Shown here piece after piece: positions 3,650 to 11,653 of a stretch of DNA of 64,000 bases. Both the position numbers and the translations under genes were made by a program. How positions within the stretch are numbered: the first letter of the stretch is position 1; each line of letters begins with the position of its first letter. The notes beneath the pieces were generated by a model. The model searched no databases. It saw only the letters and a list, made by a program, of their open reading frames with translations, and was not told where the DNA came from. The DNA comes from Hujiaoplasma nucleasis (GTDB lineage: Bacteria; Bacillota_I; Bacilli_A; Izemoplasmatales; Hujiaoplasmataceae): the NCBI RefSeq assembly GCF_013745115.1, contig NZ_CP051151.1, forward strand, positions 496,001 through 560,000, written 5' to 3'.

Positions 3650-4636
3650 ATGGAAGAAAACAGAGTTTTAAATCAAAAACATAAATTTGTTAATATTATC
3701 ATTTTAATAGCCTATCTAATCTACCTAGTCACCTCTTCATTAGTTTCTGGAATTATTTCAGATAACCACGTTGAAAAAACAAAAGATTGGGTGAGTGATG
3801 CATTTGATTATACATGGGTTCAAACTGAAGAAGGTTATGATTTACATTATCAAGCAGTGATTTCTAATCATACCAGTGGTCTTATCGATCTTGTGAATCT
3901 ACGTTTTTTACTTCTTGATGAAGAAGGTGAAGTTATCGCTGGTTTCATCCATCGATACGAAGATTTGCAGGCTGGTGAAAATAGGTTGGTTGAGAATACT
4001 CATAGTTTTTCTGAAAAATCAACGATCATTGAACAAAGTACTTATGTTCCTTTTAATAACCAATTAAGTAATCTAATACAATTTTCTTTTGGTTTTCTAT
4101 TCTTAATTCCTTTGTTTTTCATCAATAGAAAATCTTATGTAGATGATTTTATCACTTTTAAAAATGATCCTAAAAAACATATTGGCCATATTTTTTCTGG
4201 TTTCTTATTGGTTTATTTAATGGCTTTTATAGCTCAAGTCATCATGATAAGCTTAAATGTTCAAGAAACATCCATGAATGAATTAGCGATTCAATCAATG
4301 TTCACCTCTGATTGGATTTCAATTATAACCCTATTCTTCTCCTTGGTTATTTTTGCGCCAATTATTGAAGAAACTGTCTTTAGAAAAAGTTTATATAATA
4401 TTGTCCAACCAAGGTTTGGACATATAGGGGCTGTCATTATTTCCGGGCTTATCTTTGGCTTCTTACATGTGGCTGGATGGGGAGATTTTATCCAAATCAT
4501 TCCATATGCCTTTATGGGCTTATCATTCTCTTATATTTATTACTATTCAGGAAGAAATGTTTATGTTGTGATTGGCATTCACGCCTTAAACAACTTAATA
4601 CCTTATTTAACCTATACAAGCAGGTTATTTGAATAA
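3650..4636 (+). CDS. CPBP family intramembrane metalloprotease (CAAX protease-like)
   Basis: The protein has about 328 residues. One membrane segment lies near residues 15-35, then a soluble extracellular part of about 100 residues, then at least six further hydrophobic segments. The three motifs of the Abi/CPBP family are all present: EETVFR (EExxxR) near residue 240, FGFLHV (FxxxH) near 268 and GIHALNN (HxxxN) near 308. These form the intramembrane metal or glutamate active site of Rce1-like proteases. Bacterial substrates are mostly unknown; roles include processing of membrane proteins and self-immunity to bacteriocins. The ATG at 3650 has GGGGAG four bases upstream, better than the in-frame TTG at 3638. 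It is one of only three plus-strand genes. Confidence 0.88.
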   Translation: MEENRVLNQKHKFVNIIILIAYLIYLVTSSLVSGIISDNHVEKTKDWVSDAFDYTWVQTEEGYDLHYQAVISNHTSGLIDLVNLRFLLLDEEGEVIAGFIHRYEDLQAGENRLVENTHSFSEKSTIIEQSTYVPFNNQLSNLIQFSFGFLFLIPLFFINRKSYVDDFITFKNDPKKHIGHIFSGFLLVYLMAFIAQVIMISLNVQETSMNELAIQSMFTSDWISIITLFFSLVIFAPIIEETVFRKSLYNIVQPRFGHIGAVIISGLIFGFLHVAGWGDFIQIIPYAFMGLSFSYIYYYSGRNVYVVIGIHALNNLIPYLTYTSRLFE

Positions 4637-4642
4637 AGAAGA

Positions 4643-4673
4643 AAAAGGCGATTCAATCGCCTTTTATTTTTTT
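4643..4673. terminator. Bidirectional terminator between the CPBP gene and phoR
   Basis: A perfect 10-bp stem AAAAGGCGAT/ATCGCCTTTT (4643-4652, 4656-4665) has a 3-base loop and a T-run on the plus side. The converging phoR stop codon is inside the hairpin, and the minus-strand side also ends in T-rich sequence. Confidence 0.88.
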
Positions 4674-6364
4674 ATTAATGGAAGTTGAATATTGATACTT
4701 GTCCCTTGAGAAACTTGACTCTTTATTTGATAGTGTCCATGGTAATTAATTAGGATATGTTTGACAATAGATAAACCTAAACCAGTACCACCAATCATTT
4801 TTGATCTTGCTTTATCAACTCGGTAGAATCTTTCAAAAATCCTTGTTTGTTCTTCCTTAGCTATGCCAATCCCATCATCTTTAATTAGAATATTTATATA
4901 GTCATTTTCTTCAAATATGTCTATCCATACATGACCATTATCTTTATTGTATTTAACAGCATTTTCAACTAAATTTTTAATGAGTTGGAATAAATCTTCT
5001 TCATTCATTTGGTATGTTTTTACTTGTATGTTTCTATGAATTTCTATGTTTTGCTTGTCAATATCATAACTTAAATTGGTCAAAACATCATCGACTAATT
5101 TATCCAAATCTATTGTCGACATTTTGTCTTGTGTTAGCTTATTTTCAACCTCTGATAACATCAACATATCCATAACCAAAAGGTTCATTCTTACAGCTTC
5201 ATTATGAATCCTTTCTATGAGGTCTTTTTGGGTAGCTTCATCTTTAATCATATCTTGTAAAATTAAATCTGCAGATCCTATGATTGATGTTAAAGGAGAT
5301 TTTAATTCATGAGAAGCATTGACAAAGAAATCTCTTTTTAATATTTCGATTTCTTTCATATTGCTTACATCATTATAAATAATAATCACTGAAGACTCAT
5401 TGGTCCAATGGGTCTTTCTATAGCTTATAGAAACGTTATAGAAAGCATCTTTAATTTGAGTGATAATTTGTGAATCCTCTTTGTTTTCAAAAGCTTTTTC
5501 AATGGCTTTTTGAACTAATTCATCTCTAAACAAGAAACGATAATCCTTATGCATGTTTAAATTTATATTGAAATTATAAAGTTCTTTTAAATGATGATTT
5601 AACAAGATGATTTGCTTTTGTTTATTTAAAACACATAAACCTTGGTTCATATGCTCTAATAGGAAGTCTGTTTTGGATTTTTCTGATTTCAATGAAGAAA
5701 TATTATTTGATATAGAAGCACTTATTTTATTAATTTCTTGAATGAATCCATTGATCTCATCGTATTTTTCTAAGGGTAGAATCTCACGATATTGTCCTTC
5801 ATTAATATCTTCTAATATGAGTAAAATATCTTTTAATGGTTTTAAAGATTGTTTAATCAAGACAGAGGTTAACATAATTGATAATACAATAATAATGATC
5901 CCTACAACGATGGCTAAACCGATAAAATCATTAAGAAATTGTAAAATCGAGGCTGATGGAATTGCTAGCCTTAAATAATCACCATTATCTAGTTGGTTTG
6001 CTAGATACATCATGTCAATCTTTAAGGTGTCAGAATATCGAATACTGACTTCACCGATGTTTTGTATTTCTGGTCGATTTATGTGGTTGTCTAAGTTTGT
6101 CGCAAGTGAATCAGCTAAAACCACGCCATTTTCATCAATAAAGCTAATTCTTAAGTATTGATTTAAGGATTCGTACTTATCTATGATGGATTGATAATCA
6201 CTGTTCTGATTGGCTTCAATCTCAAGCATATCTTGATAGTGATTTAGATTAAGTTCTGTTAGATTGTTTAATGAATTTCTTGCGATTAATGATGCGCCAA
6301 TAATAAAAATAACGATGGCTATTAAAATCATCAATACAAATTCGAAATTTATTTTTCTTCTCAT
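4664..6364 (-). CDS. phoR: PhoR-type sensor histidine kinase of the phosphate regulon
   Basis: This 566-residue membrane kinase has a transmembrane helix near 10-30, an extracytoplasmic sensor of about 115 residues, a second helix near 148-170, a HAMP-like region to about 225 and a PAS domain near 230-330. The HisKA box HELKSPLTSI follows, with the phosphorylated His near 351, and then a HATPase domain with the N box NAVKYN near 466, the G1 box DDGIGI and the G2 box GTGLGLS. It overlaps phoP by 4 bases and sits last in the pst operon, which is the basis for calling it PhoR and not another kinase. It should phosphorylate PhoP under phosphate limitation, with PhoU and PstB as expected inhibitory partners. 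Confidence 0.92.
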   Translation of the reverse strand: MRRKINFEFVLMILIAIVIFIIGASLIARNSLNNLTELNLNHYQDMLEIEANQNSDYQSIIDKYESLNQYLRISFIDENGVVLADSLATNLDNHINRPEIQNIGEVSIRYSDTLKIDMMYLANQLDNGDYLRLAIPSASILQFLNDFIGLAIVVGIIIIVLSIMLTSVLIKQSLKPLKDILLILEDINEGQYREILPLEKYDEINGFIQEINKISASISNNISSLKSEKSKTDFLLEHMNQGLCVLNKQKQIILLNHHLKELYNFNINLNMHKDYRFLFRDELVQKAIEKAFENKEDSQIITQIKDAFYNVSISYRKTHWTNESSVIIIYNDVSNMKEIEILKRDFFVNASHELKSPLTSIIGSADLILQDMIKDEATQKDLIERIHNEAVRMNLLVMDMLMLSEVENKLTQDKMSTIDLDKLVDDVLTNLSYDIDKQNIEIHRNIQVKTYQMNEEDLFQLIKNLVENAVKYNKDNGHVWIDIFEENDYINILIKDDGIGIAKEEQTRIFERFYRVDKARSKMIGGTGLGLSIVKHILINYHGHYQIKSQVSQGTSINIQLPLIKK

Positions 6365-7047
6365 AGGCTTATCTTAAATCCTATTCCGTGAATGGTTTCA
6401 ATCCACTCTTTATTTTGGCTAATTAAATATACTTTTTTTCTAAGTTCTTTTATATGAACATCAAGTGTCCGACTTTCACCATAAAAATCATAACCCCAAA
6501 CTTCACTCATAAGAAAATCTCTACTTAAAACTTCATCAGGATGTTTCATCATTGTTTTTAATAACTCATATTGTTTATTGGTCAAAGATATAGATTGTGA
6601 ATGATAAGCAAGTTTATGGGTTTTCTCAGAGAGAATATAATCATGAACACATAAGTCTTGGTTATCTTCATCAGGCATCTGTCTTCTTAATAAGGCCTTA
6701 ACTCTTGAGATTAATTCTAATACTCCAAAGGGTTTGATTAAATAATCATCAGCGCCTATATCTAAGCCCATAACCTTATCTAATTCACTTGATTTTGCGG
6801 ATACAATCATGATTCCTATGTCTTTATATTGTGAAGATTTTTTTAACTTTTGGATGATTTCTAAACCATCCATTCCTGGCAACATGATGTCAACAATCAA
6901 TAAGTGAGGAATTCTTTTTTCTAGTTGGTGAAACATGGTTTTCCCATCAAGAAAAGTCTCAACTTCATATTGAGCATTCTTTAAAGCGATTTTAATCACG
7001 TTTTGTATATTTGGATCATCTTCTACAATATAAATCAATGCTTTCAT
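6361..7047 (-). CDS. phoP: PhoP/PhoB-type response regulator
   Basis: This 228-residue OmpR-family regulator has a receiver domain with acidic pocket E9/D10/D11, phosphoacceptor D53 in VDIMLPG, S83 and K105 in IKPFG. It is followed by a winged-helix DNA-binding domain (residues about 130-226) with the typical VWGYDFYGESRTLDVHI segment. The start has an AGGGGG ribosome site. It lies between phoU and phoR in one transcription unit, so it probably controls the pst operon itself. The three TTACAT repeats upstream of pstS are a plausible binding site. Confidence 0.93.
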   Translation of the reverse strand: MKALIYIVEDDPNIQNVIKIALKNAQYEVETFLDGKTMFHQLEKRIPHLLIVDIMLPGMDGLEIIQKLKKSSQYKDIGIMIVSAKSSELDKVMGLDIGADDYLIKPFGVLELISRVKALLRRQMPDEDNQDLCVHDYILSEKTHKLAYHSQSISLTNKQYELLKTMMKHPDEVLSRDFLMSEVWGYDFYGESRTLDVHIKELRKKVYLISQNKEWIETIHGIGFKISL

Positions 7048-7056
7048 TCTTGCCCC

Positions 7057-7710
7057 CTAATCAGATATATGTTTACCTGTAATTGAAAATATAACCCATT
7101 CAGCAAGGTTAACTGCATGATCACCAATACGTTCTAAGTATTTGGCAACCATCATTAAGTAAATGGCATAATCTGCATCAATATGACTTTCTCTAATTGC
7201 CTTAGCAACCAATTGTCTTATGGCATAAAAATCTTGGTCTACTAAGTCATCTTTTTTTATGACTTCTTCAGCAATCACTAAGTCTTGATTTACAAAAGAC
7301 TCTAATGCTTGTTTAATCATTTCTTCAGAAGTTTTTACCATGGAATGAATTTCAATAACTTCAAAAGGTTCTTGGGTTTTTTCCATAAAAATCGTCAATT
7401 TTGAAATATCAACCGCGTGGTCACCAATTCTTTCTAAATCAGTTATCATTTTTAAAATAGATGTAATCAGTCTTAAGTCCTTAGCTACCGGTTGTTCTCT
7501 TAAGATAATTCTCATGCATTCTTTTTCAATGGCATGTTCCATATCGTTGACTTCTTTGTCTTTCTTAATCATTTCTTCTGCTTGTTGGGCATTCATTTTT
7601 AAGAAGGTTTCTAAAGAACGATGGATATGTTTGGTGACTAAGTCACCCATTTTTATTAAAGATATTTTTAATTCTTCTAATTCTTGGTCAAATCTTATTC
7701 TATAGGTCAT
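7057..7710 (-). CDS. phoU: Phosphate signalling regulator PhoU
   Basis: The protein has 217 residues in two three-helix PhoU repeats. Each repeat carries the metal-binding signature ERIGDHA (near residues 92-98 and 193-199). PhoU couples the state of the Pst transporter to PhoR and limits phosphate uptake. Position directly after pstB and before phoP/phoR fits that role. The ribosome site AAGGAG is well placed. Confidence 0.95.
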   Translation of the reverse strand: MTYRIRFDQELEELKISLIKMGDLVTKHIHRSLETFLKMNAQQAEEMIKKDKEVNDMEHAIEKECMRIILREQPVAKDLRLITSILKMITDLERIGDHAVDISKLTIFMEKTQEPFEVIEIHSMVKTSEEMIKQALESFVNQDLVIAEEVIKKDDLVDQDFYAIRQLVAKAIRESHIDADYAIYLMMVAKYLERIGDHAVNLAEWVIFSITGKHISD

Positions 7711-7756: not shown

Positions 7757-8512
7757 TTATCCAAATCTTCCAGTAATATAATCTTCAGTTTCCTTTTTCT
7801 TGGGATTGGAAAAGATTTTATCTGTTTCATCAAACTCTATGAGTTCTCCCATTAAAAAGAAAGCTGTCTGATCAGATATTCTAGCTGCTTGTTGCATTGA
7901 GTGGGTCACAATGACTATGGCATAGTTTTGTTTGAGTTCATTCATTAATTCTTCAATTTTTAAAGTCGCAATTGGATCTAAAGCTGATGTGGGTTCATCC
8001 ATAAGAATGACTTCAGGTTCCATTGCGATGGCTCTAGCAATACATAGTCTTTGTTGCTGGCCACCAGATAAGTCTAAGGCAGAATCTTTTAATCTATCCT
8101 TGACTTCATCCCAAAGGGCCGCTTTCTTTAAAGATGTTTCAACGATTCTTTCTAATTCGTTTTTATTTTTTATCCCTTGACACTTAGGACCATAAATCAC
8201 ATTGTCATAGATGCTCATGGGAAAGGGATTTGGTTTTTGGAAAACCATACCTACTTTAGTTCTTAACGATATAACATCATAATTTTTTTGATAGATGTTT
8301 TCTTGATGGTACTTGACTTCGCCATCGATACTGACCTCATCAATTAAATCATTCATGCGATTTAAGGTTCTTAAGAAGGTTGATTTTCCACAACCCGATG
8401 GACCAATAAGGGCAGTGACTTTATTTTTTTCTAAGTTTAAAGTGATGTTTTTTAAGGCTTGAAATTTTCCGTAATATAAATTTAAATCATTAATTGAAAA
8501 TACTTCATTCAT
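7757..8512 (-). CDS. pstB: Phosphate ABC transporter ATP-binding protein PstB
   Basis: This 251-residue ATPase has Walker [10 protein letters not shown] at 37-45, the Q-loop in [10 protein letters not shown], which is characteristic of PstB, the signature LSGGQQQRL near 150 and Walker [14 protein letters not shown] near 167. It should form the nucleotide-binding dimer under PstC and PstA. The gene follows pstA after 13 bases and is preceded by AAGGAG. Confidence 0.97.
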
Positions 8513-8525
8513 GATGGTTATCTCC

Positions 8526-9728
8526 TTAAGCTAATTTCTTGAGATACTGATGACTTATCAGTTTCACAATAAGATTTAATAATAATACAATGACTAATAT
8601 GATTAAAGCTATGGTAGAGGCCAATTCAATATTGGCTGGTTCATCAGTCATTAAAGACCATATATGTACAGATAAGGTCGTAGATCTGCCAAAGATTGTT
8701 ATATTATCTTTAACCGCAGTACCAATGGCAAATATTAAGGCAGCGGATTCTCCGATGATTCTCCCAATAGATAAGATGGTGGCTGTTAAAATACCAGGCA
8801 AGGCAGATGGTAAAACAGCTTTAAATGTCGTTTGCGTCCGATTGGCTCCTAAGGCCAAGGATGCCTGTCTATAATCATCAGGTACGACTTTTAATGACTC
8901 TTCAGTGGCTTTAATAATTACTGGTAATAAAATAACAGCCAAGGTTAAACTACCTGATATGAGGTTGGCTGATGTTGCTGGTGTGTATTTTACCGTTAAG
9001 GGAACAAATACAGCTAAACCCATTAACCCATAGATAATACTTGGGACACCTGTAAGTGTTTCTATCATTGACCGAATCATCTGGTTTATTTTATTTTTTC
9101 TTGATAGTTCATTTAAATAAATGGCTGAAAAAATTCCAATGGGTAAGGCAATTGCTAGTGTGATACCAATAATATAAAGGGTGGTGATTAAAGAACCGCG
9201 GATACCACCGCCTAGTGAAGAGAATACTATTTCTCTAAATTGATTGGATTCATTTAATATTTGAATCATGTGCTGGGCTCCATAAACACTTAAGGCAGAT
9301 GCTTTATCTTCGAACTTTATAGATGATATGAGATTTCCCTTTTCAATCATAAATTCATCATTATCATCATTGTTTTTATCATAGATTTGATAAAGTGGAG
9401 AATCTTCAGATATGTATGATACGATGACCATAGCTTTACCTTCTCTGTCTAAATCATCTCTTAAGGCTATTCCCCATTTTTCTGAATAATAATCTTCATC
9501 ACTAAGATGACTTGGTCTTTGTGTTTTAGAAAATTCAGTGACTTCTTCAATACCTCCATTATAGAATTTGGCATGATAGTCATTGGTGATTAAATCTATA
9601 TTTAATAAACCAAAGCCATTTTTGAAAACAAAAATAATGATAAAAAGCAAGATAATAGCGGCGATGGAAGCTGAAAAGTAGGTTATTCCTTTTAATAAAT
9701 TATCAATTCTTTTTCGTTTATTTGACAT
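8526..9728 (-). CDS. pstA: Phosphate ABC transporter permease PstA with large extracellular insertion
   Basis: The core is a normal PstA permease: five or more membrane helices in residues 150-400 and the cytoplasmic EAA-like loop with ALGANRTQT near 290. At 400 residues it is about 100 longer than usual PstA. The extra length is a hydrophilic block between the first helix (about 15-37) and the second (about 160), including charged segments such as [11 protein letters not shown] and [10 protein letters not shown]; topology puts this outside the cell. The second ATG (9728) is preferred because AGGT lies 7-8 bases upstream, whereas only two bases separate it from the ATG at 9734. It overlaps pstC by 11 bases. 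Confidence 0.92.
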
Positions 9729-10683
9729 AGACATTACCTATTTTCTTTTTCACAAAGTTTAATGTGAGGTTTGTGATTAAAATAACAACAATTAAAACAA
9801 TCCCAACTGAGAAACGAATATCATAATCTATACCTATGGTTTCTTTAAGCCCTTGTAACATCGTAGATGTTAAAGTGGCTGTTGTTTCAAAGAAGGCAAA
9901 TGTTGGTCCACTTCTTGCATTACCTGCGACCAAACTAACAGCGGTTGCTTCTCCAAGGGCTCTCCCAACGCCTAATATAGCTGCAGTAAATATACCTGAC
10001 TTCGCTGATGTTAAAACCACTTTAAAGTGAGTTTGAGTTTTTGTGGCTCCTAAGGCTAAAGATCCTAATTCTATATCTTTATTCACAGATCTAATGGCTA
10101 CTTCAGATAAGGCAGTGATGGTTGGTAAAATCATTAATGATAAAACCATCACTGTAGCTAAAACTGAATTTCCACCCTTGGATTGTACACCAAAGATTTT
10201 CGCCATTTCATAAATGATTTTTAAAATAACACCACTACCAAAAAGACCATAAACTATTGAAGGAATGGCAGCCAACAATTCAATAATTGTTCTTAAGACA
10301 CTGGCCAATCTTTTTGGGGCTATTTTTGCTATAAATAAAGCAGTTAAAACTCCAATAGGAAGGGACAAAAACAATGATAAAAAAGCGATGTATAAGGTGT
10401 TAATGATGATAAAACCGACACCGTATAAGTTGGATTGAAAAGTTTGTCCTTCTAGCCAAGTTGTACCCATTAAAAAGCGAATAAGATTGACCCGACCAAT
10501 CCCATCATAATCATCGATAAAGGGTCTAATACCTTCTCTTAAAATAAAGATAGCGATAATAACAATAAAGGAAGCTGATATGAGGGTTGTTAAAAAGAAT
10601 AATGCTTTCACAAAGATATCAATATAGTCTTTTTTATGTTTAGATTGTAATTTGATTTTGATTGTATTAAATATTTTCAACAT
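9718..10683 (-). CDS. pstC: Phosphate ABC transporter permease PstC
   Basis: This is a 321-residue permease with an N-terminal helix near 27-50, a short extracellular loop with RFLMGTTW, and five further helices. The EAA-type coupling loop LGATKTQTHFKVVL is near residue 208. PstC pairs with PstA to form the translocation channel. A weak hairpin separates it from pstS, and AGGAG precedes the ATG. Confidence 0.95.
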   Translation of the reverse strand: MLKIFNTIKIKLQSKHKKDYIDIFVKALFFLTTLISASFIVIIAIFILREGIRPFIDDYDGIGRVNLIRFLMGTTWLEGQTFQSNLYGVGFIIINTLYIAFLSLFLSLPIGVLTALFIAKIAPKRLASVLRTIIELLAAIPSIVYGLFGSGVILKIIYEMAKIFGVQSKGGNSVLATVMVLSLMILPTITALSEVAIRSVNKDIELGSLALGATKTQTHFKVVLTSAKSGIFTAAILGVGRALGEATAVSLVAGNARSGPTFAFFETTATLTSTMLQGLKETIGIDYDIRFSVGIVLIVVILITNLTLNFVKKKIGNVYVK

Positions 10684-10735: not shown

Positions 10736-11653
10736 TTATAGTAATTCATCCCAAGTTAAGAAGTCACCACGATAGATTTTCTTAATTTCTTCTGCTGTTA
10801 AATTATTGACTAAATTTTCTTTATGTACGATAACAACGATTGCATCCCAAGCCAATTGACCTTGTGTGCCTTCTGAACCTACTTCTGAATCTTTAAATGG
10901 ACGACTTGCAAAACCTACATGTTTGTAATTGTCACCATCTTTTTCTGAACCTTGTGTTCTTTTAAAACCATCTGATGATCCTGTGTGTTCATGTTCAGGA
11001 ACAAAGTTACCACATTTTGGAGCGAATGATTCTGTTAAGGCTAAAGCAATTTTTTCAATCGAATCAGAACCTCCGAATTTAATGGTGATTGATGAATTAT
11101 CTAATGAACATACCGGATGTTGATCTTTAATATCATCCCATGTACCATTGCTTGATAGAGAAATTGCACCTTCATTGGTAATAATATCTGCACCATCAGA
11201 TGTATTCAAGAAAGCAACAAAAGCTAAAGTAATGTCTCTTTCTGTGTCATTAGCGAAATCGTCTAACGAACGGATTATATAATTGAATGGTCTTTTTAAT
11301 CCATAAGTATTGTTAACAACATTTTGTTTGGTTGGATCAACACCTTCAAATTGTAAACCTTTTACCTTGTCATTTAAACTTGCTAATGAAATGTAACCTA
11401 TACCATATTGATCAACTTCAATTGATGATAAAATCCCTGTGTTGTCTTTGATTAAGAATCCATCAACCAATAGGCCATCATTTTCAGCGGCGTCTGAGAA
11501 ATCTATACCTTCCATAAAACCAGCTCTGGTCCCACTTGATGTGTCTCTAGTATAGACGGTGATATTTTTACTTGAATCCCATGCATCATCATTTGTACAT
11601 GCAGATACTGATAAGACTAATGCTAGTAAGAATACTAATAATATTTTTTTCAT
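10736..11653 (-). CDS. pstS: Phosphate-binding lipoprotein PstS, apparently circularly permuted
   Basis: This 305-residue lipoprotein has the signal MKKILLVFLLALVLSVSAC, with lipobox Cys19. The order of modules is unusual. Residues 30-166 (ITVYTRDTSSGTR, then GIGYISL, VKGLQFEGVDPT and an AFLNTSDGADII segment) match what is normally the second half of PstS. Residues 187-305 (a GGSDSIEKIA phosphate-loop-like segment, VGFASR, AIVVIVHKENLVNNLT, IYRGDFLTWDELL) match what is normally the first half. Both halves are complete in a single frame. Phosphate binding is inferred from these motifs and from the pst operon. The start has AAGGAAGAGG upstream. Two cysteines (182, 214) flank the second module. 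Confidence 0.9.
   Translation of the reverse strand: MKKILLVFLLALVLSVSACTNDDAWDSSKNITVYTRDTSSGTRAGFMEGIDFSDAAENDGLLVDGFLIKDNTGILSSIEVDQYGIGYISLASLNDKVKGLQFEGVDPTKQNVVNNTYGLKRPFNYIIRSLDDFANDTERDITLAFVAFLNTSDGADIITNEGAISLSSNGTWDDIKDQHPVCSLDNSSITIKFGGSDSIEKIALALTESFAPKCGNFVPEHEHTGSSDGFKRTQGSEKDGDNYKHVGFASRPFKDSEVGSEGTQGQLAWDAIVVIVHKENLVNNLTAEEIKKIYRGDFLTWDELL

Follow-up and report, generated by a model that had tools for sequence, protein, structure and literature searches.

A circularly permuted phosphate-binding protein, PstS, in Hujiaoplasma nucleasis and its relatives

TpMglB-2 (Tp0684) of Treponema pallidum is a membrane-anchored substrate-binding protein of an ABC importer and a natural circular permutant; it has homologues in Gram-positive bacteria, and a link to tethering was suggested by its authors (PMC4990184). 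Glycine-betaine-binding proteins (OpuAC) are reported to share a structural circular-permutation family with molybdate-binding proteins and CysB (PMC2395249). Ordinary phosphate-binding proteins of the TIGR02136 type, such as those of Clostridium perfringens (PDB entries 4gd5 and 4q8r) and Vibrio cholerae (1twy), share both halves, the site motifs, and the operon position with the PstS analyzed here, while their half order is reversed relative to it. The closest known system is PstS2 of Streptococcus pneumoniae (SP_2084), released in 2012 as entry 4h1x, which has the same half order, cut point, and full-length fold. No paper naming this entry, or relevantly linking PstS to circular permutation, was found in a partial literature search, most subscription papers lying outside it.

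The window analyzed is a stretch of 64,000 nucleotides from Hujiaoplasma nucleasis (contig NZ_CP051151.1, positions 496,001 to 560,000), where pstS lies directly upstream of pstC-pstA-pstB-phoU (Table 1). The preliminary description was aware of no described permuted PstS; the arrangement is not unique, given the solved structure 4h1x and the wide occurrence of the order in the lineage.

Order of the halves in the window protein

Table 1. Features of the pst operon in the window and segments of the PstS and PstA proteins.
Feature	Position	Strand	Evidence or remark
pstS, circularly permuted phosphate-binding lipoprotein, 305 aa	10736..11653	(-)	ATG start, single open frame
Lipoprotein signal peptide and lipobox Cys, PstS residues 1-19	11597..11653	(-)	sequence MKKILLVFLLALVLSVSAC
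C-half of ordinary PstS, first in chain, residues 28-166	11156..11572	(-)	contains phosphate-loop motif RDTSSGTR
Linker from old C-terminus to old N-terminus, residues 167-187	11093..11155	(-)	modelled as short helices
N-half of ordinary PstS, second in chain, residues 188-304	10742..11092	(-)	motifs GGSDS, GSSDG, FASR
pstC permease, ordinary length	9718..10683	(-)	TIGR02138, 230.7 bits, above cut-off
pstA permease, 402 aa	8526..9734	(-)	TIGR00974, 238.9 bits, above cut-off
PstA extracytoplasmic insert, 122 residues, PstA residues 47-168	9231..9596	(-)	between first transmembrane segment and conserved core
pstB ATPase	7757..8512	(-)	TIGR00972, 430.9 bits
phoU	7057..7710	(-)	TIGR02135, 209.7 bits
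phoP/phoR-type response regulator (6361-7047) and histidine kinase (4664-6364)	4664..7047	(-)	ORF translations; putative names

Both halves of the window protein were homologous to PstS profiles and structures, and their chain order was C-half followed by N-half (C-N), against the N-C order of the PstS family. The profiles TIGR02136 and PF12849 each matched in two swapped stretches, where residues 188-303 corresponded to positions 39-154 of 295 in the former and residues 190-303 to positions 11-125 of 267 in the latter. Similarly, a phmmer search of PDB sequences matched ordinary PstS 4q8r in two pieces (query 189-304 to chain 4-113, and query 31-166 to chain 120-245). When residues 188-305 were placed ahead of residues 28-170, the two partial matches merged into one and the scores rose, from 110.5 to 122 bits for TIGR02136 (profile positions 40-291 of 295), from 68.9 to 82.7 bits for PF12849, and from 87.7 to 99.7 for 4q8r. 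The control 4h1x behaved in the opposite way: it was matched by the native order in a single stretch (query 27-304 to chain 7-264) and by the reordered protein over one half only. The native protein scored above the PF12849 cut-off of 27 bits, while the TIGR02136 cut-off of 206.6 bits was missed in either order, and thus the halves have diverged in sequence as well.

The same arrangement emerged from structure prediction. A single-sequence AlphaFold2 run gave a pLDDT of 33.5, and an alignment of 80 sequences was used instead, for which the mean pLDDT was 93.5 and the pTM 0.82. The best PDB match of this model by Foldseek was 4h1x (E 1.6e-23), and VIA-align superposed the two over 252 residues (model 29-305 to chain 35-291) with a Z of 27.8, a deviation of 3.1 A, and an identity of 27%. 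In contrast, the ordinary PstS structures 4gd5, 4q8r, and 1twy were aligned over 131-133 residues only, which comprised the C-half alone (2.0-3.4 A). A profile of the permuted relatives matched 31 PDB sequences, and of these only 4h1x at full length in a single stretch. The window protein is predicted to have the fold of ordinary PstS in another chain order. Reordering, profile searches, model, and structural alignment concurred with the permutation proposed in the preliminary description, including its cut point, which separates "..IYRGDFLTW" from "ITVYTRDTSSGTR".

Relative to an ordinary class II phosphate-binding protein, the two halves are joined in reverse, with a linker of approximately 21 residues bridging the old C- and N-termini and the new ends falling in the loop that normally connects the halves. 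The linker has 21-23 residues in most window-type relatives and is shorter in 4h1x. Cys19 of the lipobox was retained in at least 90% of the 80 aligned relatives, and the signal had a weak match, under the cut-off, to the Pfam family LPAM_1.

Distribution, operon context, and origin of the swapped order

Of 394 genomes drawn evenly from the class, a group identical to that of the phylum-level draw, 141 had a match to the window protein; by a count of the printed rows, approximately 108 were collinear with it and approximately 32 were either weak or showed the ordinary split. Separate scoring of the halves in the fetched loci, with duplicates removed, yielded 134 C-N, 22 N-C, five tandem C-N-C-N, and one C-N-C form. 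C-N is the standard order among Izemoplasmatales, Acholeplasmataceae, and many Erysipelotrichales-like genomes, and its named carriers included Candidatus Izimaplasma/Izemoplasma, Mycoplasmatota bacterium zrk2, Acholeplasma laidlawii, A. oculi, Paracholeplasma vituli, Peloplasma aerotolerans, and Erysipelotrichaceae MAGs. The spread beyond the class is known from plasmid records and the PDB only: plasmids of Monoglobus pectinilyticus and Treponema saccharophilum encode PstS of the same order, adjoining pstCAB-phoU.

Several individual loci departed from the common pattern. Tenericutes bacterium MO-XQ (L141 and L174) has two pstS copies approximately 99 kb apart on one chromosome with the same match scores, which equal those of G570:C1 at 1631916 and 1730846, pointing to a large duplication or an assembly repeat. 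A MAG titled Staphylococcus epidermidis (L184) contains a mollicute-type permuted PstS and is probably a misnamed bin. Additionally, one operon (L052 of genome G137, 3997-6015, (-) strand) holds two separate permuted pstS genes that lie side by side and have diverged.

Permuted PstS proteins annotated by NCBI beside pstC were named only "substrate-binding domain-containing protein". A systematic annotation gap is likely, and probably exists because the family profile was built for the other half order. The plasmid proteins (L107, 4465-5280, and L108, 4923-5792), which lie beside pstCAB-phoU, bear the same name.

The gene order was identical beside permuted, tandem, and re-cut pstS forms, and homologous response regulator and histidine kinase genes recurred beside pst in related loci. 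One locus (L083) has a second PhoU-like ORF upstream of pstS, besides the one after pstB. The remainder of the window operon had been described as normal, which is accurate in that the pst set is complete, but PstA bears an extracytoplasmic insert of approximately 120 residues. Counted as loci, with repeats of the same genomes included, a profile of this insert was present in 152 C-N loci, all five C-N-C-N loci, and the C-N-C locus; all 20 N-C loci lacked it. The C-N loci without the insert also numbered 20, of which 11 represented the 4h1x-like clade and eight were taken as truncated at a contig end (only partly checked); the last, L082, holds a PstA of the longer size. Searches of Pfam, NCBIfam, and PDB sequences yielded no confident match for the insert. 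The insert occurs only with permuted PstS of the window type. This association may reflect a single event, and the insert, which may serve the permuted receptor, is hence a lead, and not proof, on the docking of a binding protein whose anchored end has moved.

Two clades of permuted PstS were distinguished: P1, the 4h1x type, which includes S. pneumoniae PstS2, Monoglobus, Treponema saccharophilum, and some relatives within the class, and P2, the window's clade, which has the PstA insert. A single swap, passed on vertically with some horizontal spread and followed by the addition of the PstA insert in the window's clade, is the somewhat more probable history. The cut point is shared between the clades, P1 members occur in several phyla, plasmids included, and a single permuted clade was not rejected by AU tests on either the PstC+PstA+PstB tree (p 0.276) or the PstS-half tree (p 0.584). 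Against it, both trees placed P1 apart from P2 when left free and needed two changes, with the free backbone tree splitting P2 from the canonical operons plus P1. Two independent swaps, cut at the same loop in P1 and P2, appear somewhat improbable. They would account for the position of P1 and P2 as separate clades of the PstC+PstA+PstB tree (SH-aLRT 99 and 97) with ordinary operons in between, as well as for the shorter C-to-N linkers and the missing PstA insert in P1, but they are met by the same AU result on that tree, by an identical cut point, and by a PstS-half tree whose likelihood was higher when the permuted forms were held together.

Tandem and re-cut forms of the permuted receptor

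In five genomes (G210, G119, G181, G304, and G222; loci L047, L048, L049, L050, and L051), the gene directly upstream of pstC encodes a single C-N-C-N chain of 593-678 amino acids, both units of which keep both motif sets. Within one chain, the bodies of the units were 84-99% identical, while the last 25 or so residues of the N-halves shared only 40-77%. Between G119 and G181, the bodies were 67% identical, and the first-unit tails resembled each other more (48%) than in the crosswise comparison (36%). Near-identical bodies with differing tails suggest, short as the tails are, an old duplication whose bodies were homogenised by gene conversion. G616 (locus L233), a congener of G119 with a single-contig genome, has a C-N-C-N pstS broken across two frames, which represents either decay or a sequencing error.

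The tandem chains could in principle fold as an ordinary unit (N1-C2) nested inside a permuted one (C1...N2). The N1-to-C2 junction is short, with 8-10 residues in the coordinates used here, close to the 4-6 of ordinary PstS, and the best Pfam stretch in G210 was exactly the middle N1-C2 portion (residues 193-434). Such nesting is nonetheless the less likely fold, as the units were homogenised as C-N repeats, to the 84-99% given above, and the model of one C-N unit by itself is confident.

A third order, C'-N-C, with a new cut point, was observed in one genome only, G257 (L053, 3846-4790, (-) strand), which belongs to the same genus as G210. Its pstS is an intact ORF with a lipobox and is followed by pstC. 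After the signal and lipobox, the chain runs in order through the final helix segment of the C-half (DYTKAEKEELIVKAFVSFM...), a linker, the N-half, and the remaining C-half, and it ends in KRPFMFVTRY-stop; relative to the units of G210, no segment is missing and none is doubled. A C-N-C-N ancestor trimmed at both ends would explain this order simply. In the tree of PstC, the PstA core, and PstB, the sister of G257 was the C-N-C-N genome G210 (SH-aLRT 99), as predicted by permutation through tandem duplication and trimming.

By the same route, the first permutation most likely would have proceeded through a tandem duplication of pstS, an in-frame fusion, and the trimming of both ends. The permuted gene would later have been duplicated in tandem in this lineage, and the tandem of one genome trimmed again into the third order; we infer this direction of the duplication and trimming steps. 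A fused N-C-N-C chain was not seen in the related loci, where only adjacent, separate ordinary pstS genes were found, and the first permutation step is therefore left without a surviving intermediate in the sampled loci. A fusion of ordinary tandem pstS genes was considered in G345 and G115 and rejected, as each contains two separate ORFs.

Natural circular permutants are usually seen as end products only. The presence of ordinary, permuted, tandem, and re-cut receptors at one operon position makes the duplication-and-trimming route directly testable. As a tentative proposal, one receptor family may keep most steps of a permutation, with N-C, C-N, C-N-C-N in three tree groups, and C'-N-C precisely re-permuted from the tandem, and a new extracytoplasmic domain of PstA that docks the permuted receptor may have co-evolved with it in the window's clade.

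Function and relation to known binding proteins

The preliminary description had excluded a frameshift or truncation, and this view was borne out: PstS is one intact ORF, and its order, which recurred in approximately 80 loci of named genome records and in many further ones at identities as low as approximately 30%, is therefore no sequencing or assembly accident. An artefact, whether by frameshift, by misassembly, or by a chimeric joining of two pstS pieces, has no supporting point and a negligible probability, given the intact single frame, its conservation in dozens of independently assembled genomes, and the crystal structure with this order.

The residues R36 and S40-G41-T42 (RDTSSGTR) of the C-half and G195, S196, S198, S226, and S250 of the N-half were invariant in 26 permuted relatives with identities down to 29%. 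These conserved residues belong to the established phosphate-site motifs of PstS. A PF12849 search of the 1.81-Mb single-contig genome found no second PBP_like_2 protein, and the window protein is the only detected receptor of its pst operon. Being the sole PstS detected, at the head of a complete pst-phoU-phoPR-type operon, it almost certainly works as a phosphate receptor, most likely in the ordinary role of high-affinity capture for PstCAB; phosphate binding is expected on the grounds of homology and operon context.

The two-lobed body and the phosphate site would be retained in the permuted protein, with phosphate passed on to PstC, PstA, and PstB as usual. The start of the C-half corresponds to residue 127 of E. 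coli PstS, which by the domain boundaries of that protein would fall within domain II. With the lipid-anchored end moved in this way, the membrane tether should be attached to the opposite lobe from that of ordinary PstS. Taken together, the window protein is very probably a functional, circularly permuted PstS that keeps its fold and site, feeds PstCAB, and most likely arose through duplication and trimming.

Among the known systems, the operons sampled from the 4h1x clade, which come from carriers other than S. pneumoniae, have no PstA insert. The mollicute phosphate-binding profile TIGR04505 (PtsS_plasma) is of the ordinary order and matched the C-half weakly (27.6 bits, profile positions 200-333 of 334), far under its cut-off of 175. 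Among full-length collinear matches to the model, OpuAC ranked next after 4h1x (Z 11.6), but represents a distant family with another ligand and approximately 10% identity. Unlike the window protein, TpMglB-2 has a type I sugar-binding fold with another cut and belongs to an unrelated family. Natural permutation of binding proteins was already known, for TpMglB-2 and, across families, for glycine-betaine-binding proteins, and the window protein is a PstS by descent, almost surely a PstS by work, and permuted in its order.
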